Below are positions 15,998 to 39,600 of a DNA stretch of 44,487 bases, in pieces. The notes below the pieces were generated by a model that saw only the letters and a program-made list of their open reading frames with translations, made no database searches and was not told the DNA's origin. Position numbers and translations under genes: made by a program. Every line of letters begins with the position of its first letter. Position 1 is the stretch's first letter. This DNA is from an uncultured Phycisphaerales bacterium (lineage in GTDB: Bacteria; Planctomycetota; Phycisphaerae; Sedimentisphaerales; Anaerobacaceae), in assembly GCA_937927975.1 (NCBI GenBank), contig CALEZT010000234.1:1-44487 (forward strand), read 5' to 3'.

Positions 15998-16037
15998 CCG
16001 CCCGGCCATGGGAATTTCCTTTCGTGCGGCCGGGCGG
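15998..16037. terminator. Strong GC hairpin between operon genes
   Basis: ccgcccggcc and ggccgggcgg form a perfect 10-bp stem with a 20-nt loop, 55 bp after the fusion gene and 34 bp before the SagB gene. With no T-run it is more likely an attenuator or mRNA stabiliser than a full terminator. Confidence 0.5.
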
Positions 16038-16070
16038 ATCGGTACTCTGTCTCCAGGAAAGGAGAACCAT

Positions 16071-16772
16071 ATGGATCGCAGAACGTTTGTGAAGACGGTG
16101 CCCGCAATGGCGGTGCTGGCCGGTTCGACGTCGGGCCTGGCCCAGGAGGCCCCGAAGCCCGCCGCGGAGCTTCAGCCCATCGCGCTGCCTAAGCCTGAGA
16201 AAGACGGCGGCAAGTCCGTGCTGGCCTCTCTGTGGGAACGAAAGACGGTTCGCAACATCCGAAGCGAGAAGCTCCCGCCGCAGATGTTGTCGAATCTGCT
16301 CTGGGCCGCGTTCGGGGTCAATCGCGAGCAGGGCAATTTCGGCAAGACGGGACGGACGGCGCCCTCGGCCAGCAATTCGCAGGAGATCGATCTGTATGTG
16401 GCTCTGCCCGAAGGCGTCTACGTGTACGACGGCGCGTCGCACCGTTTGAATCCCGTCGCGGCGGGGGACTTTCGATCCAGGTCGGGTCGGGGCGCTGCGA
16501 CCACCGCGCCGGTCAACATCTTCTACGTCGTGGACCTCGCACGCTATGTGCTCGAAGGCAATCCCGACCGCAGAATCAACGATCCGGAGATTCAGAAGTC
16601 GTACTACTACTGCGCGTCGGGTCTGATCGCGCAGAGCGTGTACCTGTTCGCGGCCTCGCAGGGCCTCGCGGCCTGGTTCCACAATTGCGACAAAGAGAAC
16701 ACCGTGAAGGAGTTCAAGCTGCGGCCCCAGCAGAAGGTGCTCTTCGCTCAAACCGTCGGATATCCGGCGTGA
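16071..16772 (+). CDS. SagB/nitroreductase-family oxidoreductase with Tat signal
   Basis: 233 residues; ATG 16071 is preceded by AAAGGAG, whereas the earlier ATG 16008 has no site. The N-terminus MDRRTFVKTVPAMAVLAGS is a twin-arginine signal. The remaining domain is a nitroreductase fold of the SagB type: an early ERKTVRNIRSEKLPPQMLS FMN-phosphate-binding region, LLWAAFGVN, GRTAPSASNSQEIDLYV, and the late QSVYLFAASQGLAAWFHN segment. SagB-like proteins are FMN oxidoreductases; peptide-azoline oxidation is known for true SagB, but there is no precursor or cyclodehydratase here, so a generic periplasmic flavin reductase is more likely. Follows the MBL fusion by 128 bp (with a hairpin between) and precedes the PQQ-like gene by 38 bp. 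Confidence 0.85.
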   Translation: MDRRTFVKTVPAMAVLAGSTSGLAQEAPKPAAELQPIALPKPEKDGGKSVLASLWERKTVRNIRSEKLPPQMLSNLLWAAFGVNREQGNFGKTGRTAPSASNSQEIDLYVALPEGVYVYDGASHRLNPVAAGDFRSRSGRGAATTAPVNIFYVVDLARYVLEGNPDRRINDPEIQKSYYYCASGLIAQSVYLFAASQGLAAWFHNCDKENTVKEFKLRPQQKVLFAQTVGYPA

Positions 16773-16810: not shown

Positions 16811-18046
16811 ATGAGAAAGAACGTGATCCGTTCAGTGCTCGTTGTGACGATGGTTTTGGCCGTGGCGGTTCAGGCCGCGGATTGCCCGAGATTCCGAGGG
16901 CCCGCCGGCGACGGCCAGTTCTCCGAGACGGGTCTGCTCAAGCAGTGGCCGCAGGGGGGCCCCAAGCTCGCCTGGACGGCCCAGGGGCTCGGCAAAGGCT
17001 ATTCTTCGGCCACCGTAGCCGGCGGCACACTCTACGTGACCGGCATGGACGACCAGAAGCAGGGCGTTCTCTTCGCGTTCAACCTGGACGGCTCGCCCAA
17101 GTGGAAGACGCCATATGGGCCGGAGCTTGAAAAGCAGGGGGCATCGGTGGCCGGCACGCGCGCCACGCCCACCGTTGACGGCGACCGTGTGTACCTCCTG
17201 ACCGGTTTCGCCAGGTTGGTTGCCTTCGACGCGGCCAAAGGCCAGGTGCTCAAGACGGTCGATCTGGTGGAGCGTTTCAAGCCCAAGCAGGCTCAATTCG
17301 GTTTTGCCGACTCGGTGCTCGTCGATGGGAACAGGCTGATCTGCTCGCCCGGCGGGCCCAATGCCTCGGTCGTGGCGCTGGACAAGAACAGCGGCGAAAC
17401 CCTCTGGCAGACCAAGGGTCTCAGCCAGACGACAGGCTACTGCTCGGCCCGAATCGTCGAGCAGGGCGGTCGGCGACTGGTCCTGACCATGCTGGGAGCG
17501 GGCGTCGTCGCGATCGACGCCGGAACAGGCGAGGTCGTCTGGCAGCGCGAATACCCCCACCGAGCCAGCGTCCAGCCCAATCCGCCGCTCTATGCCGATG
17601 GGATGGTCTTCGTCTCCTCGGGCATGGGCACAGGCAGCGCGATGCTGTCTCTGGTCGAAACGAACCCAACCGCCGCACCGGTCTGGGCCGAGAAGGCCCT
17701 CGATTGCCAGATGCAGGGCACCGTCCTGATCGACGGCTGCATCTACGGCACCGCCCAGAGCGCCAACAAAGGGCTCGTCTGCCTGGACTGGAAGACAGGC
17801 AAGGTGCTGTGGAACGCCCCCGAGGTCAAGCAGGGCGCCGTAACTGCCGCAGACGGCATGCTTTACGTCTACGGCGTGGACGGCACGGTTCGCCTGGTCA
17901 AGCCCAGTCCCGCGTCGTATGAGCCGGCAGGCCAGTTCACCGTATCAGCCGGCACCGACGAGCACTGGGCCCACCCGACGATCGCCAACGGCCGGCTCTA
18001 CATCCGCCACGGCGACGCTCTGGTCGCATACGACCTCAAGTCCTGA
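16811..18046 (+). CDS. Secreted PQQ-like beta-propeller protein
   Basis: 411 residues; AAGGAG seven bases before ATG 16811. Signal peptide at 1-22 (SVLVVTMVLAVAVQAA). The mature protein opens with CPRFRGPAGDGQFSETGLL, the W/F-RGP-G-G opening typical of planctomycete quinoprotein-like propellers, and then shows repeated blades of the form GGTLYVTGMD..GVLFAFNLDG..KWKTPYG, VVALDKNSGETLWQTKG, VVAIDAGTGEVVWQREY and VCLDWKTGKVLWNAPEV. These are PQQ/BamB-like blades; there is no clear catalytic PQQ pocket, so a binding or scaffold role is as likely as dehydrogenase activity. Last gene of the presumed MarR-controlled group; the next gene is 182 bp on. Confidence 0.87.
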   Translation: MRKNVIRSVLVVTMVLAVAVQAADCPRFRGPAGDGQFSETGLLKQWPQGGPKLAWTAQGLGKGYSSATVAGGTLYVTGMDDQKQGVLFAFNLDGSPKWKTPYGPELEKQGASVAGTRATPTVDGDRVYLLTGFARLVAFDAAKGQVLKTVDLVERFKPKQAQFGFADSVLVDGNRLICSPGGPNASVVALDKNSGETLWQTKGLSQTTGYCSARIVEQGGRRLVLTMLGAGVVAIDAGTGEVVWQREYPHRASVQPNPPLYADGMVFVSSGMGTGSAMLSLVETNPTAAPVWAEKALDCQMQGTVLIDGCIYGTAQSANKGLVCLDWKTGKVLWNAPEVKQGAVTAADGMLYVYGVDGTVRLVKPSPASYEPAGQFTVSAGTDEHWAHPTIANGRLYIRHGDALVAYDLKS

Positions 18047-18227: not shown

Positions 18228-19106
18228 ATGACGACAGACCGGCCCGGCGGGCAGGAGTTGATTCTCTTCTGCAATTGTGTCCACTATGACGTGATCCCGA
18301 AAAGCGTGAGGGAGCAGGTCCTGAACTCCCTTTCAGGCGCCGGCGCGGAGGTTGAAGCGGTCGCGGACCTGTGCGGCCTGGCAGCGGATCGCGACCCCCG
18401 CCTGCAAGTCTGGGCTCAAAACCCGTCGCTGACGATCGTCGCCTGCTACCCGCGGACCATTCGCTGGCTCTTCCACGCCGCCGGGGTGTCGCTCGCTGTG
18501 GACCGCACGCGGTTTTTCAACATGAGAACGCAGTCCGTCCAGGAGATTCTCGACGGCCTGTCGATCGGTGATGACCAGTCCGGACCTCCCGCCTCCAATC
18601 ATCAATCATCAACAGCAAATAGTAAATCCGATTGGGTTCCCTGGTTTCCGGTCATCGATTACGACCGGTGCGTCAATTGCAGACAGTGCATGAACTTCTG
18701 TTTGTTCGGCACCTACGGTCTCTCGGACGAGGGGCGGGTCCAGGTGGTCAAGCCCTCCGGCTGCAAGACCAACTGTCCCGCCTGCGCGCGGATGTGTCCC
18801 AGGCAGGCGATCATCTTCCCGAAGTACGCGGATTCACCGATCAATGGCGATGTGGGGCCCGCCCCGGCCGGCCCGGCGCCGCAGGCGACTGGGAGCGACG
18901 TGTACGAGCGGATCCGCAACCGTTCGGTCAAGCGGTTCTCGACCCAGGCGGACACGAACCGCTCGTGCCCGACGCTGGACAGTCTCAAACGCGAACTGAA
19001 CATTCCCGACGAGGTTCTGGCCTCGCTTTCCCCGACTGAGATGCAGCGGGTCCTCGCGAAATCCAAGGCCGATCCACAGGAGAAGGGCGACAAACCCCAT
19101 GAGTAA
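18228..19106 (+). CDS. Ferredoxin-like iron-sulfur protein, first gene of the terpenoid cluster
   Basis: 292 residues. The N-terminal ~110 residues ([18 protein letters not shown]..., [30 protein letters not shown]) form an alpha/beta domain with conserved-looking Cys, reminiscent of HdrA-associated electron-transfer proteins. A linker (~123-135, [13 protein letters not shown]) is AT-rich and looks repeat-derived. The ferredoxin domain follows with C148-x2-C151-x2-C154-x3-C158 ([11 protein letters not shown]) and a second set in [15 protein letters not shown], sufficient for two 4Fe-4S clusters. The C-terminus is variable. The stop overlaps the next gene's start by 8 bp, so it is tied to the radical SAM enzyme and most likely supplies its electrons. 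Confidence 0.82.
18595..18633 (+). repeat. In-frame AT-rich repeat (NHQSS-type) in the ferredoxin gene
   Basis: ccaatcatcaatcatcaac followed by agcaaatagtaaatcc is strikingly AT-rich against the ~63% GC gene around it and contains the tandem word atcatca. Translated it gives [13 protein letters not shown]; from memory, NHQSSIINHQSS-like peptides mark a dispersed repeat in planctomycetes. It falls exactly between the two domains. Confidence 0.6.
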
Positions 19107-20724
19107 GTCTTTGCGACCCGCGGTCGTCCTCGTCGCAGACAGGACCCTGAGCGCCAGCTACCGCATCCTTTTCGAAGGCATGTTCGCCACGATGCAGACG
19201 ACGCAATTGCCCGAGCTGTTCATGCGTCGGTTCATGGCGCCGCCGGTATCCACGGATGAGAACGGACGGGCCAAGACCGTCCCGCTGGGTCTCCGCCGCG
19301 TCGAGTCGGCTTTGCTCAAGTACACGTCTCTGACCCCCGACGAGGTGGTCTGCACGACGCCGGAGCGAGTGGCCGATCTGATGGGACCCTGGGTCAAGGT
19401 GGTGGGCTTCAGCTCCAGCGATCCGCTGGGCAAGGGCATGAGCAACACGACCACCGCCAACTTCTGCAAAGGCGAACTCTACACGCAGTATTGGACGCGA
19501 AAGACCCTGGAGCAACTCGGGGCTTTCAAACGCAAGTACGGATTCAAGATCGTCGTCGGCGGCGCGGGCGCCTGGCAATGGCTGGCGCACCCCGACCGCA
19601 GACCCGACGTCGACATCGACCTGGTCTACCAGGGGTATTTCGAATCGCTGGGCCCCGAGGTTTTCACGGATCTGCTGGCCGGTCGGTCTCGCGCCGACTG
19701 CATCGCAGGCTCCGACATCGGGGCCTCGCGAATCCAGCCCATCCGGTCGCCCTCGCTGCTGGGGATCATCGAGCTGTCGCGCGGCTGCGGCCGGGGCTGC
19801 AAGTTCTGCGCCATGGCCCGCCAGGGGATGGCCCATCTGGACGAGGACACGATCCTGGCGGATCTCCAGACCAACGTCGCAGGCGGCCTGAAGGCGGTCG
19901 TCAGCGGCAGCGAGGACTTCTTCCGCTACGGCGCCAAAGGGCTCAAGCCCGACTTCGAGAAGCTTCGCAGCCTGCTGGTTCGCATGCGTGAAATCAAAGG
20001 CCTTTCCTTCATGCAGATTGACCACGCGAACATCACCTCGGTCTTGCAGCTCGACGACGAGCAGCTCAAGGAGATCAAGCGGCTCCTGACCTGGGAGCAG
20101 AGGAGCGACTATCTCTGGGTGAACATGGGCGCCGAGAGCGCCAATGGACACTTGGTTGCGGCCAACAGTCCTGGTAAAATAGCGCCGTTCGATCCCGAGG
20201 ATTGGGGCCGGATGATTCGCGACGCCGCGGACCGGATGAACCGGTGCGGGTTCTTCCCGGTGATGAGCCTGGTGCTGGGTCTGCCGGGCGAAACGCCCGC
20301 CGACGTCGCGGCGACCCTGGAGTTGGTGAAGGACCTTCGAAAGAAACGGGCCGTGGTGTTCCCGGTGTTCTACGAGCCCATGACGGCCGACGAGATCGCG
20401 GCCGACCGGCGGTTCAGTCTGGCGACGATGACGCCGGAGCATTTGGAGCTGTACCGAATGTGCTACGAGATCAACTTCAAGATGGTCCCGCGGCTGTTCT
20501 GGGACAACCAGCGTGCCGGCGGCGTCCCGTGGATCAAGCGGGCGGTCATGCAGACGATGGGCAAAGGAGAGGTCCTGACCTGGCGGCGGGCGTTCGACCG
20601 CTTGGCGCGAAAGTTCGAAGTGAAAAATAGATCCGAAATCCGAAATCCGAAATTCGAAACAAACTCAAGTGGCCAAAACCCAAATGACAGAAACGCTGTC
20701 GCATCGTCGGAGGTTCCGTTTTGA
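19099..20724 (+). CDS. B12-binding-type radical SAM enzyme of the terpenoid cluster
   Basis: 541 residues. Residues ~1-200 form an N-terminal Rossmann-like region of the sort that precedes B12-type radical SAM domains ([41 protein letters not shown]), though a canonical DxHxxG cobalamin motif is not evident. The radical SAM core begins at [20 protein letters not shown] with the cluster Cys C230, C234 and C237 (Cx3Cx2C) and continues with [11 protein letters not shown] and [14 protein letters not shown]. The chemistry (methylation, rearrangement or other carbon-skeleton editing, as HpnP/HpnR do on hopanoids) is inference from context. The last ~31 residues, from [20 protein letters not shown] on, are encoded by an interspersed repeat, so the natural C-terminus was probably near residue 510. 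Confidence 0.83.
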
Positions 20725-20830
20725 GCTTTTAATTCCGGTCATTCGTGCTTGTTTCGGATTTACGTTCCCGCTTTGGCGGGGTCGATATTCGGATTTCGAA
20801 TTTGTGAGCTCCGGATGTGGAGCTTTGGGT
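20629..20830. repeat. Palindromic interspersed element covering the radical SAM gene 3' end
   Basis: Left arm ~20629-20690 (tccgaaatccgaaattcg, then caaactcaagtggccaaaac) and right arm ~20740-20812 (cattcgtgcttgtttcgga, attcggatttcgaatttg) are partly reverse complementary. Low GC compared with the genes. Its left half is translated as the tail of the radical SAM protein. The unit 'aatccgaaattcgaa' is, from memory, widespread in planctomycete genomes. Confidence 0.72.
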
Positions 20831-20853
20831 TTTGAAAAGGGAGATGTTGATGT

Positions 20854-22452
20854 ATGCGTGACGACCGTGTGACGGCGACGAAGCCTCAACGGCAGCCTCA
20901 GGACAACGTTCCGCAGAGCAGACACGCTCGCGAGAAGTTGCTGGAGGCGATTCGCGCATACGTGGCGAGGGAGAAGCCGGTGCCGCCTCTGGGCATCGAG
21001 GAATTGCGGGTCCACACCGACGCGGTGCTCAAAGAAGCCGGCATGGAGTCCAAGTACTCCGATTTCGCGGCGGTCCTGGTCAACAACGAGGCCTGGCGGG
21101 AAACCGTCGCGGCCATCCCTTACGACAAACGCCTGCTTCTGCTGCCCAAGTGCCTCCGGGACGCCAAGGATTGTCCCGCGAGTTTCGACGACATCGGCCT
21201 GCTGTGCCAGCACTGCGGTCGGTGCGTGATCGACGACCTCAAGAGCCAGGCGGAGCAGCTTGGATACGCGGTCCTGGTCGCGGAGGGTTCGCCGGTGGTG
21301 ATGTCGCTCATCGAGGCCGGTCGGATCGAGGCGGTCGTCGGGGCAAGTTGCCTGTCCGTCCTGGAGCGGGTGTTCCCCTACATGGAGGCCGGCGCGGTAC
21401 CAGGCGTCGCGATTCCTTTGTTGCGTGATGGTTGCACCAACACGAGCGTCGATCTCGAATGGCTCTGGGAGGCGATCTACCAGACGACCGAGGACCAGAC
21501 GCAGCGGTTCAATCTCGACGCGCTGCATCAGCGGGTGAACGAGTGGTTCTCGCGCGAGGCGCTGGCCGAAGCGATCGCGCCGCACGCCGGCCCGACGGAA
21601 CAGGTGGCCCTGGACTGGATGGCCAAGGCCGGCAAGCGATGGCGTCCGTTCCTGGCGGTCTGCGCCTACAGCGCCCTGTCGGGCGACCATGCGTTGGCGC
21701 GCGAGGCGGACCTTCGCAAGGTGGCGATTGCGGTCGAGTGTTTCCACAAGGCCTCGCTGATCCACGACGACATCGAGGACGGCGACGCTGAACGCTACGG
21801 CGAGCGGACGCTGCACGCCGAGCACGGAGTGCCCATCGCGCTGAACGTGGGCGATCTGCTGCTGGGCGAAGGGTACAGGCTCCTGGCGGAGGTGAATGCC
21901 TCCGATTCGCAAAGGGTCCGACTGCTCCGCGCCGCGGCGCAAGGCCATCGAAATCTGTGTCTGGGTCAGGGCAGCGAACTGGCCTGGATGCGGTCGCCCA
22001 AGTCGCTGTCGGTCGCGGAGGTCATCGACATTTTCCGAATGAAGACCGCGCCGGCCTTCGAGGTCGCTCTGAGTCTGGGCGCCATCCTGGCCGACTGCGA
22101 CCAGCAGGTCCACACGGCCTTGGCGAAGTACAGCGAATCGCTGGGCATCGCCTACCAGATCCGCGACGACCTCGACGACCTCCGCTCGCTCGCGAGGGAA
22201 GAACTCTTCAACGGCAAGCGGCCCTCGATCCTCCCGGCTCTGTCTCAAGAGGACCCCAAGACGGAAGTCGAATCCGCCGCCTGGCGTCTCATGGAGGCCT
22301 ACAAATCGCAGGCGATCGGCAGTCTCATCGCACTCAAGAACGCCAATCTCAAGGGCCTGCTTCGGCGCGTGATCGCCAGGATGTTCAACGATTTCGAGAT
22401 CATGGGCTGCTGCGACGACCCCCAGGCTCGGCGTGCGGCGGGCCGTGAATGA
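20854..22452 (+). CDS. DUF116 - polyprenyl synthase fusion protein
   Basis: 532 residues with two modules. Residues ~30-220 are a DUF116 domain: LLLPKCLRDAKDCPASFDD, then C118-x2-C121-x2-C124 (CQHCGRCVIDDL), EGSPVVMSLIEAGRIEAVVG and GCTNTSVDLEWLWEAIYQ. Residues ~235-510 are a complete trans-isoprenyl diphosphate synthase: GKRWRPFLAVCAY, first Asp-rich motif D305-D306-IE-D309 in LIHDDIEDGD, a KTAPAFEVALSLG region and second Asp motif D438-DLDD. The synthase should condense IPP with allylic diphosphate; chain length cannot be read reliably. DUF116 is a cysteine-containing domain of unknown function, usually in anaerobes. Their fusion suggests DUF116 acts on or near prenyl metabolism. The stop overlaps the MFS frame by ~20 bp. 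Confidence 0.88.
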   Translation: MRDDRVTATKPQRQPQDNVPQSRHAREKLLEAIRAYVAREKPVPPLGIEELRVHTDAVLKEAGMESKYSDFAAVLVNNEAWRETVAAIPYDKRLLLLPKCLRDAKDCPASFDDIGLLCQHCGRCVIDDLKSQAEQLGYAVLVAEGSPVVMSLIEAGRIEAVVGASCLSVLERVFPYMEAGAVPGVAIPLLRDGCTNTSVDLEWLWEAIYQTTEDQTQRFNLDALHQRVNEWFSREALAEAIAPHAGPTEQVALDWMAKAGKRWRPFLAVCAYSALSGDHALAREADLRKVAIAVECFHKASLIHDDIEDGDAERYGERTLHAEHGVPIALNVGDLLLGEGYRLLAEVNASDSQRVRLLRAAAQGHRNLCLGQGSELAWMRSPKSLSVAEVIDIFRMKTAPAFEVALSLGAILADCDQQVHTALAKYSESLGIAYQIRDDLDDLRSLAREELFNGKRPSILPALSQEDPKTEVESAAWRLMEAYKSQAIGSLIALKNANLKGLLRRVIARMFNDFEIMGCCDDPQARRAAGRE

Positions 22453-23839
22453 GGCGGGGGACGTGACAAGCCAGGGACGCGATCGAGCGGTGCACGCGGG
22501 CGCAGGCGATGAACAGCCCTGGCCGTGGTCGAAGCTGCCATTTGCGTTGCGCGGGCTGCGACGCAGGAACTATCGGCTGTTCTTCGGCGGCCAGTTCATC
22601 TCCCTGATCGGCACCTGGATGCAGGCGGTGGCTCAATCCTGGCTCGTCTATCGATTGACGAACTCAGCGGCGATGCTGGGGTTCGTCGGGTTCGCCGGCC
22701 AGATCCCGGTCTTCCTGCTGGCCTCGGTCGGCGGCTCGACGGCCGACCGCTACAATCGCCATCGCATCCTGCTGGCCACGCAGACGACCGCCATGCTCCT
22801 GGCCTTCATCCTGGCGGCGTTGACTCTCACCGGTCGCGTGCAGGTCTGGCACATCTTCATCCTGGCCTCCTCACTCGGTTTGGTCAACGCCTTCGACGTC
22901 CCCACCCGCCAGGCGTTTGCGGTGGATATGGTCGGGCGGAACGACCTGATCAACGCCATCGCGCTGAACTCGTCGATGATCAACGGCGCTCGCATGGTGG
23001 GTCCTGCGATCGCCGGTCTTCTGGTCGCCAGTGTGGGCGAGGGCTGGTGCTTTCTGCTCAACGCGATCAGCTACCTGGCGGTGATTGCAGGACTGCTGAT
23101 GATGACTGTGGATGCGCAGGTCCGCGTGCCTCTGCCTGGTTCTGCGCTGGCAAGCATTCTCGAAGGTTTCCGCTACGTCCGGCACAATCGGCCGATTCGT
23201 ACGCTTCTGCTTCTGCTGGGACTCGTCAGTCTGATGGGCATGCCGTACGCGGTGCTCATGCCGATCTTCGCCGACCAGATCCTGCACGGCGGCCCGAAAG
23301 GGCTCGGCCTTCTGATGGGCGCATCGGGTTTCGGGGCCTTGATCGGCGCTGTGACGCTGGCGACGAAGAAGGGCATCCGCGGCCTGGGACGGTGGATCGC
23401 GTTCTCCGCCGCGGGGTTCGGCCTGGGCCTGATCCTGTTCTCGCAATCCCGGTCCTTTCCATTCTCGATGGCGCTGCTGGCGCCGGTCGGGTTCTCGATG
23501 ATGATCGAGATGGCCGCGTCGAACACGCTGATTCAGTCGCTGGTCCGCGACGAGTTTCGTGGCCGCGTGATGGCGTTGTATGCGATGATGTTCATGGGCA
23601 TGGCTCCGTTCGGTTCGCTGCTGGCCGGCGCGCTGGCCCATCGGATCGGCGCGCCGTCGACCGTCATGCTGGGCGGCGCGGTGTGCATGGCGGGGGCTGC
23701 GGTGTTTCGATGGCATCTGCCGGCTCTGCGACTGGAGGCACGGGAGATGATCGTGGCGCTTCAGGTCGCCGCGGGCGATCCGGCGGAGGAAAGCACGGGA
23801 CAGGCGAGCGTCGTCGCGCCGCGAGGGCCCCAGGAATAG
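22433..23839 (+). CDS. MFS transporter (EntS/MFS_3-like exporter)
   Basis: Up to 468 residues; the exact start is uncertain (22433, or GTG codons at 22445 and 22463 in frame). The first ~35 residues are polar. Twelve hydrophobic segments can be counted from about NYRLFFGGQFISLIGTWMQA to the C-terminal third. The GTWMQAVAQSWLVYRLTNS and GSTADRYNRHRILLATQ stretches match the MFS_3/EntS subgroup, whose loop 2-3 motif is G-x-x-x-D-R-x-x-R. The partly polar tail (PAEESTGQASVVAPRGPQE) is cytoplasmic. Members export siderophores and drugs; embedded in this cluster it most plausibly exports the terpenoid product or an intermediate. Overlaps the preceding gene and is followed 9 bp later by the next. 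Confidence 0.88.
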   Translation: MRRAVNEAGDVTSQGRDRAVHAGAGDEQPWPWSKLPFALRGLRRRNYRLFFGGQFISLIGTWMQAVAQSWLVYRLTNSAAMLGFVGFAGQIPVFLLASVGGSTADRYNRHRILLATQTTAMLLAFILAALTLTGRVQVWHIFILASSLGLVNAFDVPTRQAFAVDMVGRNDLINAIALNSSMINGARMVGPAIAGLLVASVGEGWCFLLNAISYLAVIAGLLMMTVDAQVRVPLPGSALASILEGFRYVRHNRPIRTLLLLLGLVSLMGMPYAVLMPIFADQILHGGPKGLGLLMGASGFGALIGAVTLATKKGIRGLGRWIAFSAAGFGLGLILFSQSRSFPFSMALLAPVGFSMMIEMAASNTLIQSLVRDEFRGRVMALYAMMFMGMAPFGSLLAGALAHRIGAPSTVMLGGAVCMAGAAVFRWHLPALRLEAREMIVALQVAAGDPAEESTGQASVVAPRGPQE

Positions 23840-23848
23840 GAGAACGCC

Positions 23849-24730
23849 GTGACCATCAGGCTGGATATGTGCAAGGCCGTGACGAACGCCCGTGAGGCTC
23901 TGGGCGATTCCGCAGAGGCGGTGAAGGGCTTTTTCCGGCGGCAGCTTGCTCCGGATGGCGGCTTCCGGGGCCGGGATGGACGCAGCGATCTCTATTACAC
24001 GGTCTTCGGGCTCGAAGCGTCCCTGATGCTGGGCGTCGACCTGCCTCGCGAACAGGTCGTTGCGTACCTCGGTAGTTTCGGCCAGGGCGAATCGCTCGAT
24101 CTCGTGCATCTGGCGGCCCTGATCCGCTGCCAGGCGAACATGGCCAGTCTGCGGGACCCCGAGGCTCTGGCGCAGCGTCTCACGACGTACAGATCGCGAG
24201 ACGGCGGTTTCAACATGATTCCCCGAGAGGCACAAGGCAGCGCGTACGGCGGGTTTCTCGCGTTGGGCGCGTGGCAGGATCTGGGCATCGAATGCCCCGA
24301 CGTCGAAGCGGTGGCGGAGTCCATCGCCTCGTTGCACAGACCCGAGGGCGGCTATGCAAACGAGGCTTCGATGACCGCAGGCGCGACCCCCGCCACGGCG
24401 GCTGCGATCTGCGTGCTGCACTACCTGAATCGGGCGGTCCCCGAGTCCGCGATCCAGTGGCTCCTGGCCCGCGTCCACCCGCTCGGCGGCTTCACCGCGA
24501 TTGCGTTCGGCGGGGATGCCGGCGTGCCCGATCTGCTTTCCACCGCGACCGCCTTGCACGCCCTCGCTCGGATCGGCGTGCGGCTGGACGACACGAAGGA
24601 CAAGCATCTCGATTATCTGGACAGTCTCTGGAACGTCGAAGGGGGATTTCGAGGCCACTGGGGTGACGACGTTGTGGACTGCGAGTACACGTATTATGGC
24701 CTGCTGGCCCTGGGGACCCTGATGCCATGA
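23849..24730 (+). CDS. Prenyltransferase/squalene-cyclase alpha-alpha-barrel protein
   Basis: 293 residues from GTG 23849 (AGGAG six bases upstream). Repeated GG-x-x-aromatic helical-barrel units are plain: APDGGFRGRDGRSDLYYTVFGL, SRDGGFNMIPREAQGSAYGGF, RPEGGYANEASMTAG, HPLGGFTAIAFGGDAG and NVEGGFRGHWGDDVVDCEYTYYGLLAL. This is the alpha/alpha6 barrel of protein prenyltransferase beta subunits. The usual zinc ligands (D-x-C ... H) are only partly met: the D-x-C equivalent reads PDLLSTATALHAL, whereas a DCEYTYYG occurs at the C-terminus. It may be a barrel without prenyl-transfer function, or a helper or substrate-binding domain for the cyclase encoded next. The stop overlaps the cyclase start by 4 bp (ATGA). 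Confidence 0.82.
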   Translation: MTIRLDMCKAVTNAREALGDSAEAVKGFFRRQLAPDGGFRGRDGRSDLYYTVFGLEASLMLGVDLPREQVVAYLGSFGQGESLDLVHLAALIRCQANMASLRDPEALAQRLTTYRSRDGGFNMIPREAQGSAYGGFLALGAWQDLGIECPDVEAVAESIASLHRPEGGYANEASMTAGATPATAAAICVLHYLNRAVPESAIQWLLARVHPLGGFTAIAFGGDAGVPDLLSTATALHALARIGVRLDDTKDKHLDYLDSLWNVEGGFRGHWGDDVVDCEYTYYGLLALGTLMP

Positions 24731-26562
24731 GCGACAAGGCCCTTGAAGAGACCATCGCCGCATTGCGGGACAGGCTGCTCGCCGCCAGGGGACCGCATGG
24801 GCACTGGGAAGGCCGGCTGTCGAGCAGTGCACTGTCGACGGCCACGGCGGTCTTTGCCCTGGCTGTGGCGGATCGAGCTCGATACCGCACGCTCGTCGAT
24901 CGAGGGCTGCTGTGGCTCTGCGAGAACCAGAACGTCGATGGCGGCTGGGGCGACACCGTGGACAGTCCGAGCAATCTGAGCACGACGATGCTCTGCTACT
25001 CCGCGCTGGCGACTCCCGATGGCCCCTCCGCGTGCTCGCCATGCGTCGAGAAGACCGAGTCGTGGCTGTTGAACAAGGTCGGCTCTCTGAATCCCGACTC
25101 GCTCACGGCTGCTGTGGAAGCGCAGTACGGCAAGGACCGCACGTTCTCGGTGCCCATCCTGACGATGTGCGCCCTGGCGGGCCGATTGGGCGAAGGCCGC
25201 AGGGCATGGAGACGGGTTCGGCCCTTGCCCTTCGAGTTGGCGGTTCTTCCACGGCGATTGTTCAAATGGCTGCGTCTGCCGGTGGTGAGCTACGCGCTGC
25301 CTGCGCTGATCGCGATCGGCCAGGCCCGGTATGCCTATCGCGGGCCGGTCAATCCGCTGGTTTGGGCGATTCGCTATGTCTCTCGACCGAAGGCCCTGCG
25401 TGTGCTTTCGACCCTTCAGCCCGACAATGGCGGTTTCCTTGAAGCCGCGCCGCTGACGTCCTTCGTGGTGATGAGCCTTGCCGCATGCGGATATCGCGAT
25501 CATCCGGTCGTCGCCAAGGGCGTCGAGTTTCTCGTGAATTCGATCCGCGAAGATGGAAGCTGGCCTATCGACACGAACCTCGCCACCTGGGGCACGACGC
25601 TGTCGATCAGCGCCCTGGCGAGCGCGGGCTTGGAGGAATCCCTGTCGTCCGCCGAGCGGCAACGACTCACAGCTTGGCTGCTGTCGTGCCAGCATCGCCG
25701 GATCCACCCCTATACGCAGGCGGCGCCTGGCGGCTGGGCCTGGACGGACCTGCCCGGCGCGGTCCCCGACGCGGACGACACCGCCGGGACGCTCGTCGCT
25801 CTGCACGAGTTGTCGCAGGCAGATCCCATGAGTCCCATAGGTCCCATCGGTCTTGTCTCCTTCGTTTCGAACGGCATCGAATGGCTCCTCGGCCTGCAGA
25901 ACTCCGACGGTGGAATTCCGACTTTCTGTCGGGGTTGGACGAAACTGCCGTTCGACAAGAGCGCCGCGGATATCACCGCCCACGCGGTCGCCGCGATGGG
26001 GCTCTGGCTTGCTTCGTTGCCCGAGCCGCTCAAGGGCCGGACGGAGAAGGCCCTGCGCAAGGCCCTCGTCTATCTGGAAGCGACCCAGCGGCCCGACGGC
26101 TCCTGGATTCCATTGTGGTTCGGGAACCAGGCCGCTGTGGATCGGGAGAATCCAACGTACGGGACGAGTCGGGCGATCAGGCATCTGGCGAGATGCGTGT
26201 CGGAGATCGGACCTATGGGACCCATAGGACCCATGTGCGAACGCGGCGTTCGATGGCTGCTTTCGGCACAGAACGTCGACGGCGGATGGGGCGGAGCCGC
26301 CTCCGTCGCTTCTTCGATCGAAGAAACCGCACTGGCGGTTGAGGCGCTGGCTACAGCCGGCGGCGATCCTTCGACCGCCCGAGCCGTCCGGCGGGGAGCC
26401 GACTGGCTCATCGCCCACACTCATCACGGGACCTACCTTCCGGCTTCGCCCATCGGCCTGTATTTCGCCAGTCTCTGGTACTCCGAAAACCTGTATCCGA
26501 TAATCTTCGCCCTGGCGGCCTTGTCCAGGGCCTCCCGAATGCCCGCCTGCGTGTGCGGCTAG
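24727..26562 (+). CDS. Class II terpene cyclase (squalene-hopene cyclase-like)
   Basis: 611 residues, a little shorter than squalene-hopene cyclases (~630-720). HWEGRLSSSALSTATA near the N-terminus matches the family's opening; QW-type repeats include ENQNVDGGWGDTV, LQPDNGGFLEA, QNSDGGIPTF, QRPDGSWIPLWFG and AQNVDGGWGGA. The catalytic acid motif D348-A-D350-D351-T sits in GAVPDADDTAGTLVAL, so protonation-initiated cyclisation is expected. LWYSENLYPIIFAL near the end matches the family C-terminus. Two loops contain in-frame repeat-derived text (DPMSPIGPIGL at ~365-375 and GPMGPIGPM at ~495-503). The substrate could be squalene or another linear terpenoid, perhaps the product of the DUF116-fused synthase. 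The stop codon lies in the arm of the 156-bp palindromic element. Confidence 0.87.
   Translation: MSDKALEETIAALRDRLLAARGPHGHWEGRLSSSALSTATAVFALAVADRARYRTLVDRGLLWLCENQNVDGGWGDTVDSPSNLSTTMLCYSALATPDGPSACSPCVEKTESWLLNKVGSLNPDSLTAAVEAQYGKDRTFSVPILTMCALAGRLGEGRRAWRRVRPLPFELAVLPRRLFKWLRLPVVSYALPALIAIGQARYAYRGPVNPLVWAIRYVSRPKALRVLSTLQPDNGGFLEAAPLTSFVVMSLAACGYRDHPVVAKGVEFLVNSIREDGSWPIDTNLATWGTTLSISALASAGLEESLSSAERQRLTAWLLSCQHRRIHPYTQAAPGGWAWTDLPGAVPDADDTAGTLVALHELSQADPMSPIGPIGLVSFVSNGIEWLLGLQNSDGGIPTFCRGWTKLPFDKSAADITAHAVAAMGLWLASLPEPLKGRTEKALRKALVYLEATQRPDGSWIPLWFGNQAAVDRENPTYGTSRAIRHLARCVSEIGPMGPIGPMCERGVRWLLSAQNVDGGWGGAASVASSIEETALAVEALATAGGDPSTARAVRRGADWLIAHTHHGTYLPASPIGLYFASLWYSENLYPIIFALAALSRASRMPACVCG
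25821..25853 (+). repeat. In-frame 'cccataggtcccat' repeat in cyclase gene, copy 1
   Basis: Built from 9-bp units gatcccatg / agtcccata / ggtcccatc / ggtct, translated DPMSPIGPIGL in a loop after the DADDT region. Low complexity and out of character with the surrounding protein. Confidence 0.72.
26206..26236 (+). repeat. In-frame 'ggacccatagg' repeat in cyclase gene, copy 2
   Basis: atcggacct / atgggaccc / ataggaccc / atgtg, translated GPMGPIGPM. Shares the 9-bp unit with 25821-25853 and with 4908-4936, and all three are in the same reading frame relative to their genes. Confidence 0.75.
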
Positions 26563-26816: not shown

Positions 26817-27227
26817 ATGAGCAGGCAGCTTTTCGAGTTGATTCTGGCGGTCCGGCGCAAGTGCCAGGGCAACGAGGGACGGATCCAACGGGAACTGGGT
26901 CTGTCCCCGGCCGAGTTCAACGCCCTGATTGTCATGGCCGACGGCGGAGAGATCACAGGCTGCGAGTTCGCCGAGCGGATGGCGCTGTCGCTCTCGCGGG
27001 CCAGTCGAGTGCTGAGCAAACTGGTGGCCGACGGCTATCTGAAGATGCGTTCGAGTCCGCAGGATCGCCGGACGATCCTGGCCTCGCTCACGCCCAAAGG
27101 CAAAAGGACCAGGCAGCGGATGTTCGAGCACATGGAGGTCTGTGAGAGCCGGATCTGTCGCGGCCTGGATCGAGAGAAGCTGATGCAGGTGCGTAACGCC
27201 CTGGAACTGCTGGAGACAGCTTTGTGA
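26817..27227 (+). CDS. MarR-family transcriptional regulator
   Basis: 136 residues from ATG 26817 with AGAGG a few bases upstream. The N-terminal helix (LFELILAVRRKCQGNEGRI) is followed by QRELGLSPAEFNALIVMADG and the recognition-helix region EFAERMALSLSRASRVLSKLVADGYL, then the wing SSPQDRRTILASLTPKGKR, which carries the DRR hallmark of MarR. The C-terminal helices (ICRGLDREKLMQVRNALELLETAL) complete the dimer arm. A palindrome overlaps its promoter, and the thioredoxin-fusion gene lies 40 bp downstream in the same direction, so a redox- or ligand-responsive two-gene operon is likely. It is not closely similar to the MarR protein encoded at 12980. Confidence 0.88.
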   Translation: MSRQLFELILAVRRKCQGNEGRIQRELGLSPAEFNALIVMADGGEITGCEFAERMALSLSRASRVLSKLVADGYLKMRSSPQDRRTILASLTPKGKRTRQRMFEHMEVCESRICRGLDREKLMQVRNALELLETAL

Positions 27228-27267: not shown

Positions 27268-27807
27268 ATGCAGCGAGTGATGTTCATTCAGTTGGCTGTG
27301 GGTTTGGTGATCGGCGGCGGTATCGGAGCGGCGATGGGCTACTTCGGAAAGTGCACCACAGGAGCCTGTCCTCTCACCGCCAATCCCTTGCGAGGGGGCT
27401 TGATCGGAGCGGTTATCGGGGGGCTTCTTGCCTTCTCCATGGTTTCGCCTCGCGTGACCGCGCAGATGAATGAGAAGGGAGAGCTCCAGATCCGCTCGTC
27501 CGAAGACTTCGAGGCGAGGGTCCTGGGAGCGAAGCAGCCTGTCCTCGTGGACTTCTACTCGAGCACATGTGGGCCGTGCCGAATGCTGGCGCCAACCATC
27601 GAGAACCTGGCCGAACAGTATGAGGGCCGTGCGGCAGTGTACAAGGTGAACGTGGAAACCCTGCCGGAGGTGGCGCGTCGGTATGGGATTCAAGGCGTGC
27701 CTTCGGTGCTGTTCTTTCAGGACGGCAAAGAGGTCAATCGTCTGGTCGGTCTGCGTCCGCAGGACGCGTATTCCGTCGTGCTCGATCGGCTGCTGAACTC
27801 GGTTTAG
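27268..27807 (+). CDS. Membrane-anchored DUF6132-thioredoxin fusion
   Basis: 179 residues; GGAG eight bases before ATG 27268. Residues ~1-65 hold two glycine-zipper membrane helices (IQLAVGLVIGGGIGAAMGYF and GGLIGAVIGGLLAFSMVS) with the CTTGACPLTANP signature of DUF6132 between them. Residues ~72-179 are a thioredoxin domain with VLVDFYSSTCGPCRMLAP (C101-G-P-C104), the cis-Pro loop GVPSVLFFQDGKEV and the usual length. The CTTGACPLT cysteines could form a membrane disulfide relay with the thioredoxin. The topology (which side the domain faces) is not decided by sequence; a Lys/Arg-poor N-terminus is ambiguous. Probably co-transcribed with the MarR gene. Its stop is only 14 bp from the stop of the convergent aminopeptidase gene. 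Confidence 0.88.
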   Translation: MQRVMFIQLAVGLVIGGGIGAAMGYFGKCTTGACPLTANPLRGGLIGAVIGGLLAFSMVSPRVTAQMNEKGELQIRSSEDFEARVLGAKQPVLVDFYSSTCGPCRMLAPTIENLAEQYEGRAAVYKVNVETLPEVARRYGIQGVPSVLFFQDGKEVNRLVGLRPQDAYSVVLDRLLNSV

Positions 27808-36548: not shown

Positions 36549-36660
36549 TCAGAATCCCTGCTGCTCGGTGCGTTCGATGATCTCATTCTGCAGGGCTTCG
36601 CCGAGGTCGACGAAGTCGTCGCTGTAGCCGGCGACTCGGACGATCACGTTCATCATCGGG
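36549..36660 (-). pseudogene. Detached C-terminal fragment of a glycyl radical enzyme gene
   Basis: 36549-36646 matches the last 98 bp of the intact gene (37234-37331) at 93 of 98 positions, including the stop. Translated it reads NPMMNVIVRVAGYSDDFVDL and ends EIIERTEQQGF, i.e. the glycyl radical loop. Upstream the match ends abruptly and the sequence runs into the antitoxin gene. Four of the five differences are synonymous. It is either a relic of a second GRE gene or the outer repeat of an inserted cassette. It might be translated, in which case it would resemble a tiny YfiD/GrcA-like spare radical domain. Confidence 0.8.
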
Positions 36661-37233: not shown

Positions 37234-37331
37234 TCAGAATCCCTGTTGCTCGGTGCGCTCGATGATCTCGTTCTGCAGGGCTTCGCCGAGGTCGACGAAG
37301 TAGTCGCTGTAGCCGGCGACGCGGACGATCA
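37234..37331 (-). repeat. 98-bp 3' end of the GRE gene, duplicated at 36549-36646
   Basis: Direct repeat in the same orientation with 93 of 98 positions identical, flanking the toxin-antitoxin pair at a distance of ~585 bp. The abrupt loss of similarity at both inner ends resembles the attL/attR of a small integrated cassette, or a collapsed tandem gene duplication. Confidence 0.85.
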
Positions 37332-39600
37332 GGTTCTGGTACTCCTCGGGCCGGGCCTTGGCTTTGCGCAGAGTTTCGGCGTCCACCACGTTGAACTGGA
37401 TGTGATGGCCGTCCAGTCGGAAGTAGGACCGGATCAGTTGCGTCAGGCTGTCGAGACCCTCGTCGCCTTCGAGCAGGGCGGGTGTGAACTTCATGTTCAG
37501 CAGGGTGCCGCCGGTCCGGCCGTGATCCATCTTGGCCGCGGACTTGAGCACCGCGGTCGGACCCTGGCGATCCACGCCCTGGACGGGGGAGATGCCCTCG
37601 GACAGAGGCAGGCCCGCCTTGCGGCCATCGGGGCTGGCGCCCATGACCGACCCGAAGTAGACGTGGACCGTGGTCGGCAGCAGGTTGATGCGGTACTTGC
37701 CGCCTTTGGTGTTGGGCCGGCCGTCCACCGCCTCGAAATACGTCTCGAAGACCGATCGCATGATCGAGTCGGCGTACTCGTCGTCGTTGCCGTACTTGGG
37801 CGTCTTTTGCAGGAGCGCCTGGCGCAGGGGCTCCTTGCCTTCGAAGTTGGCCTTGAGCGCCGCCAGCAGTTCGCCCATCGAGAGGGTCTTCTGATCGAAG
37901 ACGTGATACTTGATCGCGGCCAAAGCGTCGGTGATCGTGCCGATGCCCACCCCTTGAATATAGTTGGTCGTATATCGCGGGCCGCCGTCGTGGTAGTCCT
38001 GGCCTTTGGCGATGCAGTCGTCGATCAGGATCGAGAGGAAGGGGGCCGGCATGTACGTCGCGTAGAGCCGTTCGATGAGATGATTGCCCCGCATCTTGAT
38101 GTCGATCATGTGGTTGACCTGCCGGCGGAAGGCCTCGAAGAACTGCTCAAACGAACCCAATTGCTCGGGGTCGCCGGTCGCCAGGCCGATCTGCTTGCCG
38201 GTTCGCGGGTCCACGCCGTTGTTGAGGGTCAGCTCGAGGACCTTGGGGATGTTGAAGTACCCGGTGAGAATATAGGCCTCTTTGCCGAACGCGCCGACCT
38301 CGACGCAGCCGCTGGAGCCGCCATTGCGGGCGTCGGCGACGGACTTGCCCATGCGGATCAGTTCCTGGGCGATCAGGTCGCAGTTGAAGACTGAGGGTTG
38401 GCCGAAACCCGTGCGGATGATCCTGGCGGCTCGCTTGATGAACCGGTCGGGGTTCTTCTTGCTGACCTGGATCGAGGAACTCGGCTGCACGAGCCTCATC
38501 TGCTCGATCACATCGAGGACGAGGAACGTCACGTCGTTGACGCCGTCGGAGCCGTCCTCTTTCATGCCGCCGCTGTTGATCTGGGCGAAATCGGTGTACG
38601 TGCCGCTCTCGGCGGCGGTGACTCCCACCTTGGGCGGCGCCGGCTGGTTGTTGAATTTCACCCAGAAGCACTGGAGCAGTTCCTCCGCCTGCTCGCGGGT
38701 GAGCGTCCCCTCGTCCACGCCTTTCTTGTAGAACGGGTACAGGTGCTGATCGAGCCTCCCCGGGCAAAAAGAGTCCCACGGATTCATCTCGGTCGTGACG
38801 CCCAGGTGGACGAACCAGTAGTACTGCAGGGCTTCCCAGAAGTCCCGCGGGGCGTGGGCCGGGACATGCGAGCAGACTTCGGCGATACGACGGAGCTCGG
38901 CCTTTCGCTGCGGATTGGGTTCGTTTGTCGCCAGTTCCCTGGCCTTTTCTGCATGACGTTCGGCGAAACGGATTACCGCGTCGGCGCAGATGAGCATGGC
39001 TTTGAGCTCTTCCTGCTTGGCATAGGCCTGCGGGTCGTTCAGATAGTCCAGGCCGTCCAGACTGCGCTGAATGTCGGCTTTGAAGTCGAGCATGCCCTTG
39101 CGATAGATCTTGTTGTCGCAGACGGTGTGGCCGGGCGACCGCTGCTCCATGAACTCGGTGAACATGCCGGCCTCGTAGGCCGCCAGCCACTGCTCGTCCA
39201 TCGCGCGGAGCATCTTCTCCCGCATGGTTTTGCCCGACCAGAAGGGGATGATCTTCTCGCGGTAGACCCGCTTGACGTCTTCCGAGACCGCGTAGGAGGT
39301 CTTCTCGCGATCGTTGAGGATCTGCAGGTCCTGGCTGCTGTGACAGCACAGTTCGGGATAGGTCGGAGTCGCCTTGGGAGCAGTGCCCTTCTCGCCGACG
39401 ATCAGTTCGCCGTCGGTGATGCAGATGGTCTTGTGCTCCATCAGGTGTTTGAAGGCCAAGGCCCGGGTCACGGGCACGGACTCCCTCATGGGGACGTCGC
39501 CCAGGTAGAAGTCGGTCATCAACTCCGCTCTCTCGGCGGAGATATACGGCTTGGTCTCGACGCTCTGTCGTCGTAATTTGGCGACTCGTTCACTCATCAT
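37234..39600 (-). CDS. Glycyl radical enzyme (PFL-like, dehydratase/lyase type)
   Basis: 788 residues from ATG 39600 (a second ATG follows immediately). The long upstream frame is a shadow of the activase gene. The PFL-like domain contains the thiyl Cys432 in GGSSGCVEVGAFGKE with Glu434, i.e. the G-C-V-E signature of the dehydratase, C-N lyase or decarboxylase branch rather than the C-C motif of pyruvate formate-lyase itself. The C-terminal Gly-radical domain has RVAGYSDYFVDLG with Gly763 as the predicted radical residue. The substrate class cannot be set from sequence; diols, choline, hydroxyproline and arylacetates are all handled by relatives. Oxygen-sensitive, so it implies an anaerobic lifestyle. 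The activase gene ends 9 bp upstream, making a coupled pair. Confidence 0.9.
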   Translation of the reverse strand: MMSERVAKLRRQSVETKPYISAERAELMTDFYLGDVPMRESVPVTRALAFKHLMEHKTICITDGELIVGEKGTAPKATPTYPELCCHSSQDLQILNDREKTSYAVSEDVKRVYREKIIPFWSGKTMREKMLRAMDEQWLAAYEAGMFTEFMEQRSPGHTVCDNKIYRKGMLDFKADIQRSLDGLDYLNDPQAYAKQEELKAMLICADAVIRFAERHAEKARELATNEPNPQRKAELRRIAEVCSHVPAHAPRDFWEALQYYWFVHLGVTTEMNPWDSFCPGRLDQHLYPFYKKGVDEGTLTREQAEELLQCFWVKFNNQPAPPKVGVTAAESGTYTDFAQINSGGMKEDGSDGVNDVTFLVLDVIEQMRLVQPSSSIQVSKKNPDRFIKRAARIIRTGFGQPSVFNCDLIAQELIRMGKSVADARNGGSSGCVEVGAFGKEAYILTGYFNIPKVLELTLNNGVDPRTGKQIGLATGDPEQLGSFEQFFEAFRRQVNHMIDIKMRGNHLIERLYATYMPAPFLSILIDDCIAKGQDYHDGGPRYTTNYIQGVGIGTITDALAAIKYHVFDQKTLSMGELLAALKANFEGKEPLRQALLQKTPKYGNDDEYADSIMRSVFETYFEAVDGRPNTKGGKYRINLLPTTVHVYFGSVMGASPDGRKAGLPLSEGISPVQGVDRQGPTAVLKSAAKMDHGRTGGTLLNMKFTPALLEGDEGLDSLTQLIRSYFRLDGHHIQFNVVDAETLRKAKARPEEYQNLIVRVAGYSDYFVDLGEALQNEIIERTEQQGF

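Follow-up and report, generated by a model that had tools for sequence, protein, structure and literature searches.

Which compound could be made by a bacterial gene string that places a polyprenyl diphosphate synthase and a class II terpene cyclase beside a ferredoxin and a radical S-adenosylmethionine (SAM) protein, and is this one of the known routes to polycyclic terpenoids? The question is raised by six genes on contig CALEZT010000234.1 (assembly GCA_937927975.1) of an uncultured Phycisphaerales bacterium, of which positions 1 to 44,487 were analysed; this whole stretch of 44,487 nucleotides is called the window. An earlier note, made without database searches, had read the genes as a ferredoxin, a B12-type radical SAM protein, a fusion of DUF116 with a polyprenyl synthase, a major facilitator superfamily (MFS) exporter, a small protein of the prenyltransferase fold and a cyclase with a DxDD motif, and had proposed an unrecognised pathway of chain synthesis, cyclisation, radical modification and export. 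This interpretation is partly supported: the pathway and the synteny stand, export as a core function does not, and the B12 part was overstated. By the genome evidence a dedicated squalene-independent pathway is well supported, and the gene set represents a real variant of class II terpenoid biosynthesis that is conserved and for which no description was found in the literature searched. In this literature, covered mostly at listing level and with subscription papers largely outside, the DUF116-polyprenyl synthase was not linked to a cyclase or a radical SAM protein.

Conserved core of the gene set

Six plus-strand open reading frames (ORFs) were found at the place given by the earlier note. 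Three of the five junctions overlap and the other two gaps measure 129 and 9 nucleotides; the co-directional, overlapping or closely spaced string is real, and the gene names largely hold in Pfam and NCBIfam. A search with the fusion protein returned 7,173 significant proteins among 7,998 candidates scored, and both domains were present in all 120 homologues listed. The closest relatives by this protein are metagenome-assembled genomes (MAGs) of Phycisphaerae, represented by loci L001 (89%) and L002 (84%). From a scan of genome contigs the best 80 of at least 575 relatives were taken as the locus set, which spans Planctomycetota, Verrucomicrobiota and some Acidobacteriota. Conserved synteny, on which the proposal had been made to depend, is present in Planctomycetota and extends to the other two phyla. 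The toroid gene lies directly downstream of the fusion in 54 of the 80 loci (45 of the 61 with enough flank), the cyclase gene downstream in 31 (20 of 49) and the ferredoxin gene upstream in 43 (28 of 48). The radical SAM gene of the window adjoins the fusion in 13 loci; ten of these have the order ferredoxin, radical SAM, fusion, toroid and cyclase on one strand, and the other three are cut by contig ends. These five proteins, the ferredoxin, the radical SAM protein, the DUF116-polyprenyl diphosphate synthase fusion, the small toroid protein and the DxDD cyclase, are the conserved core. The MFS gene was found in three loci (L001, L002 and L005), for which reason the exporter was rejected as a core part.

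Co-occurrence was counted in 198 genomes from the class of G001, which is the genome of L002 and a close relative of the window; the counts are raw, without correction for kinship, and apply to cut-offs of at least 230 bits for the fusion, 170 for the cyclase and 36 for the toroid. Fusion and cyclase occurred together in 43 of these genomes, each alone in one and neither in 153. The fusion and the toroid were both present in 42 genomes, the fusion alone in two, the toroid alone in one and neither in 153. One or the other of two radical SAM types, described below, was detected at the chosen cut-offs in 41 of the 44 fusion genomes and in none of the 154 others. To go by their lengths and scores, most of the weaker matches left out by these thresholds were ordinary synthases, true squalene-hopene cyclases (SHCs), radical SAM proteins of other kinds and the usual GcvH. 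The fusion genomes G056 and G101 gave partial matches only, and in G185 a cyclase and a toroid gene (the latter at a contig end) were detected and no fusion was found.

Substrate of the cyclase

The aspartates D348, D350 and D351 of the cyclase are invariant in 30 of 30 sequences, and its DxDD motif aligns on the motif PDVDDTA of SHC. The structural model (pLDDT 90.4) is SHC-like with two domains and finds its best match in SHC 1sqc (TM 0.74); other matches are class II diphosphate cyclases, namely drimenyl diphosphate synthase 7xq4 (TM 0.65 by query and 0.79 by target length), Rv3377c (6vpt) and the ent-copalyl diphosphate (ent-CPP) enzyme 5bp8. Its two alpha/alpha domains and its DxDD acid motif place the protein in the class II terpene cyclase superfamily, and from fold and motif we infer that cyclisation is initiated by protonation. 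Its scores fall well short of the curated thresholds, as it reaches 115.3 bits on the hopene cyclase model TIGR01507 (cut-off 431.1) and 141 bits on the squalene/oxidosqualene cyclase model (cut-off 323); the true SHC in L027 scores 635 bits on the hopene cyclase model. In a tree the new cyclases group in a single clade (28 rows, support 100/100), whose stem separates them from nine SHCs by 3.4 changes per column. This tree was built with five of 12 fetched SHC regions, the other seven having been dropped for lack of an ORF passing a DxDDTA filter in the fetched stretch; L094 was also dropped, the tree contains no characterised copalyl synthase, and the place of two non-SHC outgroups is unsure because of their long branches. 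Depositors have named several homologues squalene--hopene cyclase or squalene-hopene/tetraprenyl-beta-curcumene cyclase. A search of 72,556 plasmid records gave matches in 51, in every case below 60% identity and with less than 80% of the query covered, and therefore no close relative of the cyclase is present among those records.

Two in-frame insertions in the cyclase of the window, MSPIGPIGLV (25822-25857) and IGPMGPIGPM (26206-26235), lie directly before conserved repeats and are absent or different in relatives; the cyclase of L005 has a long repeat-like insertion at another place. The sequence L094 (G024:C61, 1485-4020), from the genome of L071, pairs a polyprenyl synthetase match of 162 bits with a PF13243 match of 145 bits about 1.1 kb away and is possibly a further class II terpenoid locus.

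Squalene supply was judged by matches to the squalene/phytoene synthase family PF00494 at E 1e-15 or better. In the class sample none was found in 35 of the 44 genomes with the fusion; of the 154 genomes without it, 75 have one. Squalene is therefore an unlikely cyclase substrate in those 35 genomes. When 23 of the 26 genomes of relatives were searched (G007, G019 and G025 being left out), no PF00494 match was found in eight, and the other 15 had one. A bona fide SHC, taken as more than 300 bits on PF13243, is present as a separate gene in 15 of the 26 genomes; none at that level was found in 11, including G001. In eight planctomycete genomes, among them G001 as the closest relative searched, neither a true SHC nor a PF00494 enzyme was found. 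The genomes thus speak against a cyclase that would give ordinary hopene with a hopanoid locus elsewhere.

In the proposed route the chain would come from the fusion. Both aspartate-rich motifs of trans-polyprenyl diphosphate synthases are present in it; across the 80 loci the first, DDxxD, was found in all and the second matched its pattern in 78, in one of these as DDIEE. The DUF116 half has conserved cysteines, including a CxxCxxC motif. Small residues before the first DDxxD motif permit longer chains, which is an established rule for medium- and long-chain synthases. Alanine at position -5 and serine at position -4 of this motif were found throughout the 120 homologues listed; of 20 class-sample fusions found by profile 19 have them too, and in the 20th (L120) the motif pattern gave no match. 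Both of these sets were obtained without that motif, whereas the corresponding 80 of 80 in the locus set lacks such independence, since ECFHKASL was one of the two patterns with which the loci had been sought. The fusion has the small-residue mark of long-chain synthases, which would predict a long product, and the three best-aligned solved synthases (1wy0, 5jfq and 6kd7) have tyrosine or phenylalanine at -5. Each of the 23 genomes has PF00348 matches and 20 of them have exactly three, and therefore the fusion is an extra synthase in most of them.

Chain length also bears on the alternative of C20 class II chemistry. Here the fusion would make geranylgeranyl diphosphate (GGPP) and the cyclase would convert it to a copalyl- or halimadienyl-type diphosphate, the precursor of a modified and exported labdane-related secondary metabolite. 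The closest solved synthases in sequence, 1wy0 and 5jfq, are GGPP synthases, the diphosphate cyclases 7xq4, 6vpt and 5bp8 are among the structural matches, and the window does contain an MFS gene. Bacterial class II diphosphate cyclases such as the drimenyl, ent-copalyl and Rv3377c enzymes share with the new cyclase the fold of two toroids with DxDD and, as proposed here, linear prenyl diphosphate substrates. However, the small residues at -5 and -4 (120 of 120 and 19 of 20 fusions) argue against a C20 product, and the cyclase with its 611 amino acids has the size of SHC and is nearer to it, in sequence and in fold E-value, than to the solved diphosphate cyclases with chains of 501-539 amino acids. 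Wide conservation and a non-conserved exporter are also more easily reconciled with a house lipid than with a secondary metabolite, and we regard C20 chemistry as rather improbable.

The radical SAM step

The radical SAM protein of the window (type 1) has the motif CxxxCxxC at C230, C234 and C237, which is invariant in 14 sequences. It is a radical SAM protein by PF04055, as the earlier note had stated. The B12 dependence that the note had added is weakly supported and was rejected as an established property. In a Pfam search up to E 5 the window protein showed no B12-binding domain, and of three relatives tested one matched this domain, at E 0.14. In favour of B12, some depositors name homologues 'B12-binding domain-containing radical SAM protein', and the best NCBIfam match of the window protein is TIGR04013 (B12_SAM_MJ_1487), with 62 bits for a cut-off of 251. 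At the 3' end of the gene four copies of ATCCGAA (window 20631-20659) form, together with the sequence that follows, a C-terminal tail; close relatives are without it.

In 26 of the 80 loci the gene that precedes the fusion encodes a second, different radical SAM protein (type 2), and a comparison of the window protein with it gave no match at E 1e-5. Its best NCBIfam matches belong to the AhbC/AhbD/NirJ group, all under cut-off. On the model of HpnH, the adenosyl-hopene transferase, it scores 36 bits (L014) and 34 bits (L027), far under the cut-off of 225. The two types were not found together in any genome. In the class sample, at a type 2 cut-off of at least 200 bits, type 1 is present in 26 genomes and type 2 in 15, all of them fusion genomes, with both in none and neither in three of the fusion genomes. 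In a second set of 47 fusion-locus genomes (type 2 cut-off at least 400 bits) type 1 was present in 12, type 2 in 30, both in none and neither in five. G001 belongs to both sets, and the pooled total is therefore 90 distinct fusion genomes, of which 82 have exactly one type, none has both and eight have neither. Among cultured bacteria, Chthoniobacter flavus Ellin428 combines the fusion, toroid, cyclase and type 2 genes with an SHC, and a type 1 record exists for Anaerobaca lacustris.

On a tree of the fusion, made by a quick method with 81 rows (15 labelled type 1, 45 type 2 and 21 unlabelled), the distribution of the two types requires a minimum of three switches, and two of these are reversals close to the window. 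L002 and L009 are the type 2 loci inside the type 1 clade. The operon of L002 is without type 1 and its genome G001 has a type 2 gene on another contig; the type 2 label of L009 comes from the genome search alone, because its contig ends at the fusion. In G220, the genome of L001 and nearest relative of the window, neither type was found. The type 2 protein of G001 (L093, G001:C26:4667-5842) scores 487 bits and is more divergent than those of most other carriers, which score mostly 530-830. The alternation is read as the displacement of one enzyme by a non-orthologous one at a single step of the same pathway, a reading drawn from gene distribution and the fusion tree.

Electrons for the radical SAM step could come from other parts of the core. 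The ferredoxin is the predicted electron donor; its N-terminal part of about 130 amino acids gave no match in a Pfam search, and in verrucomicrobial loci it is split in two genes. A role in electron transfer and a flavodoxin-like fold have been proposed for DUF116 (PMC5898192). The toroid model (pLDDT 96.7) has the alpha/alpha fold of protein prenyltransferase beta subunits and is nearest to those of geranylgeranyltransferases (GGTases), with GGTase III beta 6o60_B as best match in the PDB (E 1.1e-6, TM 0.73). In L004 (11649-12505) the toroid gene reads as two pieces in different frames, because of which it may be frameshifted or misassembled.

Such a redox-rich module with a prenyltransferase-like protein might also be thought to build a prenylated redox cofactor, quinone-like or thiol-linked, with the toroid moving a prenyl group onto an acceptor shaped by the radical SAM protein and the redox module. 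Besides the toroid fold and the proposed role of DUF116 (PMC5898192), the company of the type 2 protein would fit. A GcvH-like protein, in which K74 is kept in 13 of 13 sequences, and a CobW GTPase (21 of the 80 loci overall) are encoded upstream in many type 2 loci. This K74 is at what we take to be the lipoyl-lysine position. However, in the class sample the GcvH-like gene (at least 190 bits) was found in six of 15 type 2 genomes, in G185 and in none of the 26 type 1 genomes; no acceptor was identified, and a DxDD cyclase would be unexpected for a plain quinone tail. A cofactor product is accordingly quite unlikely.

Proposed route and its surroundings

We lean towards a dedicated, squalene-independent class II pathway in which a regular polyprenyl diphosphate is cyclised and a reductant-fed radical SAM step takes part. 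Judged from its motifs, the synthase half of the fusion would condense isopentenyl diphosphate (IPP) to an all-trans chain longer than C20. The cyclase, by fold and DxDD motif, would protonate the far end of the linear prenyl chain to give a polycycle that probably retains a diphosphate or alcohol end. A radical SAM protein of either non-orthologous type would, as co-occurrence suggests, modify chain or polycycle with electrons from the ferredoxin and, perhaps, from the cysteine-rich DUF116 domain tied to the synthase. Most tentatively, the small toroid protein might hold or transfer a prenyl group. A membrane terpenoid is the probable product, and in the clade of the window the MFS protein may move product or precursor. 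The gene set may in this way make an unrecognised family of hopanoid-like lipids.

Several observations weigh against this pathway. The cyclase gene is not near the fusion in many loci, mainly verrucomicrobial ones (near in the said 20 of 49 with enough flank), PF00494 enzymes are present in nine of the 44 fusion genomes, and in G006 no cyclase-like PF13243 match was found beside SHC, the best other single match reaching 26 bits (41 with in-frame neighbours). Most of the genomes are MAGs, and absences may therefore be gaps. The predicted chain length rests on two positions, and the synthases from relatives' genomes with which these were compared (alanine/threonine in three of long-chain type and tyrosine/serine in one of short-chain type) carry type labels assigned in this analysis from motif and length.

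Bacterial polycyclic membrane terpenoids are best known via squalene, and the hopanoid pathway consists of HpnC/D/E, SHC and HpnH. It shares with the new cluster a class II DxDD cyclase of the SHC superfamily and a radical SAM enzyme, and the best fold match and several depositors' names might suggest a divergent SHC; yet hopanoid biosynthesis was rejected as a very improbable function, since the cyclase stays at 115 of 431 bits where the true SHC of L027 has 635, and forms a separate clade (100/100), since no HpnC/D-type PF00494 enzyme was found in 35 of 44 carriers of the class sample and a bona fide SHC is present as an extra gene in 15 of 26 genomes, and since the type 2 radical SAM protein reaches 36 of 225 bits on HpnH. 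The distinction from the known hopanoid pathway drawn by the earlier note is supported. Another related system is the sporulene/sesquarterpene pathway of Bacillus (HepS/HepT, YtpB and SqhC), in which a regular long prenyl diphosphate is passed to an SHC-like cyclase without squalene. The same squalene-free supply of an SHC-like class II cyclase is proposed here, but the new cluster adds the dedicated DUF116 fusion, the ferredoxin and the radical SAM protein, and the Bacillus SHC-like protein L097 falls outside the new cyclase clade, on a long branch and with its place unsure. The presence of DUF116 had been presented as a novelty, which overstates the case: the fusion of DUF116 with a polyprenyl synthetase was noted in 2015 for Psta_0175, in a treatment that proposed an electron-transfer role for DUF116 (PMC5898192). 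With the DUF116 (arCOG02078) proteins the fusion shares its conserved cysteines. The available part of that account makes no link to a cyclase, a toroid protein or a radical SAM protein.

The coordinates given before are correct for the genes, and the conserved neighbourhood is wider (Table 1), with a BamB-like gene upstream and MarR and thioredoxin genes downstream in relatives. A frame of the pyrroloquinoline quinone (PQQ) type lies directly upstream of the ferredoxin frame in eight of the 13 type 1 loci, and two of the five loci without a match, L003 and L006, are cut there by contig ends; in six type 1 loci the two stop-to-stop frames overlap or are 4 nucleotides apart. The same frame stands upstream of the ferredoxin in L001 and L002, and the BamB-like gene is a probable accessory gene of the cluster in the clade of the window. 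The genes for MarR and for the DUF6132-thioredoxin protein are each found at the equivalent place in four of the 80 loci (L002, L003, L004 and L009). A nitroreductase-family gene (window 16008-16772) lies two genes upstream of the ferredoxin, a position kept in L001, L002 and L020. Further downstream a 103-nucleotide direct repeat of 94% identity occupies window positions 36549-36651 and 37234-37336, 685 nucleotides apart.

Table 1. Genes of the string and its neighbours in the window, with the matches on which their names are based
Feature	Coordinates	Strand	Match
BamB-like PQQ beta-propeller protein	16811..18046	+	PF13360, 98 bits
Ferredoxin, two-cluster [4Fe-4S]	18228..19106	+	dicluster PF13237, 28.3 bits, residues 141-191
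Radical SAM protein type 1	19099..20724	+	PF04055, 42 bits, above cut-off
DUF116 - trans-polyprenyl diphosphate synthase fusion	20854..22452	+	PF01976 (118.6 bits) and PF00348 polyprenyl_synt (138.9 bits)
MFS exporter, lineage-specific insertion, non-core	22433..23839	+	MFS_3 PF05977, 210 bits
Single-domain alpha/alpha toroid protein (prenyltransferase beta / terpene cyclase fold)	23849..24730	+	Prenyltrans PF00432, 45 bits
Class II (DxDD) terpene cyclase, new clade	24727..26562	+	SQHop_cyclase N and C
MarR-family regulator, probable local regulator	26817..27227	+	PF12802, 41 bits
DUF6132-thioredoxin protein, recurrent neighbour in the clade of the window	27268..27807	+	PF00085, 92 bits; PF19628, 54 bits

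In the genomes with no squalene synthase found, a long-chain-type synthase and a DxDD cyclase of its own would give this widespread gene set a separate route to ring-bearing membrane lipids. One account derives tricyclic terpanes from 'tricyclohexaprenol', a regular C30 isoprenoid that belongs to prokaryote membranes (PMC10319793); another describes them as 'orphan biomarkers' of which the precise sources are unknown, algae being considered too (PMC9247107). As a hypothesis, the gene set has the parts needed for a route of the tricyclohexaprenol type. It is a speculative proposal, to which we give a low probability, that its class II cyclase acts directly on a regular polyprenyl diphosphate of at least C30 and so yields tricyclic or related polyprenols. 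Were it true, tricyclic terpane fossils would have living producers in the carriers, which are widespread planctomycetes and verrucomicrobia, some of them with no SHC and no squalene synthase found, and the radical SAM step of the tricyclic-polyprenol route would have passed at least three times from one of two non-orthologous enzymes to the other. With the gene set the source of tricyclic terpanes can be tested directly by genetics, and the replacement of one radical SAM protein by the other is a good natural case for defining what an uncharacterised radical SAM step must achieve.

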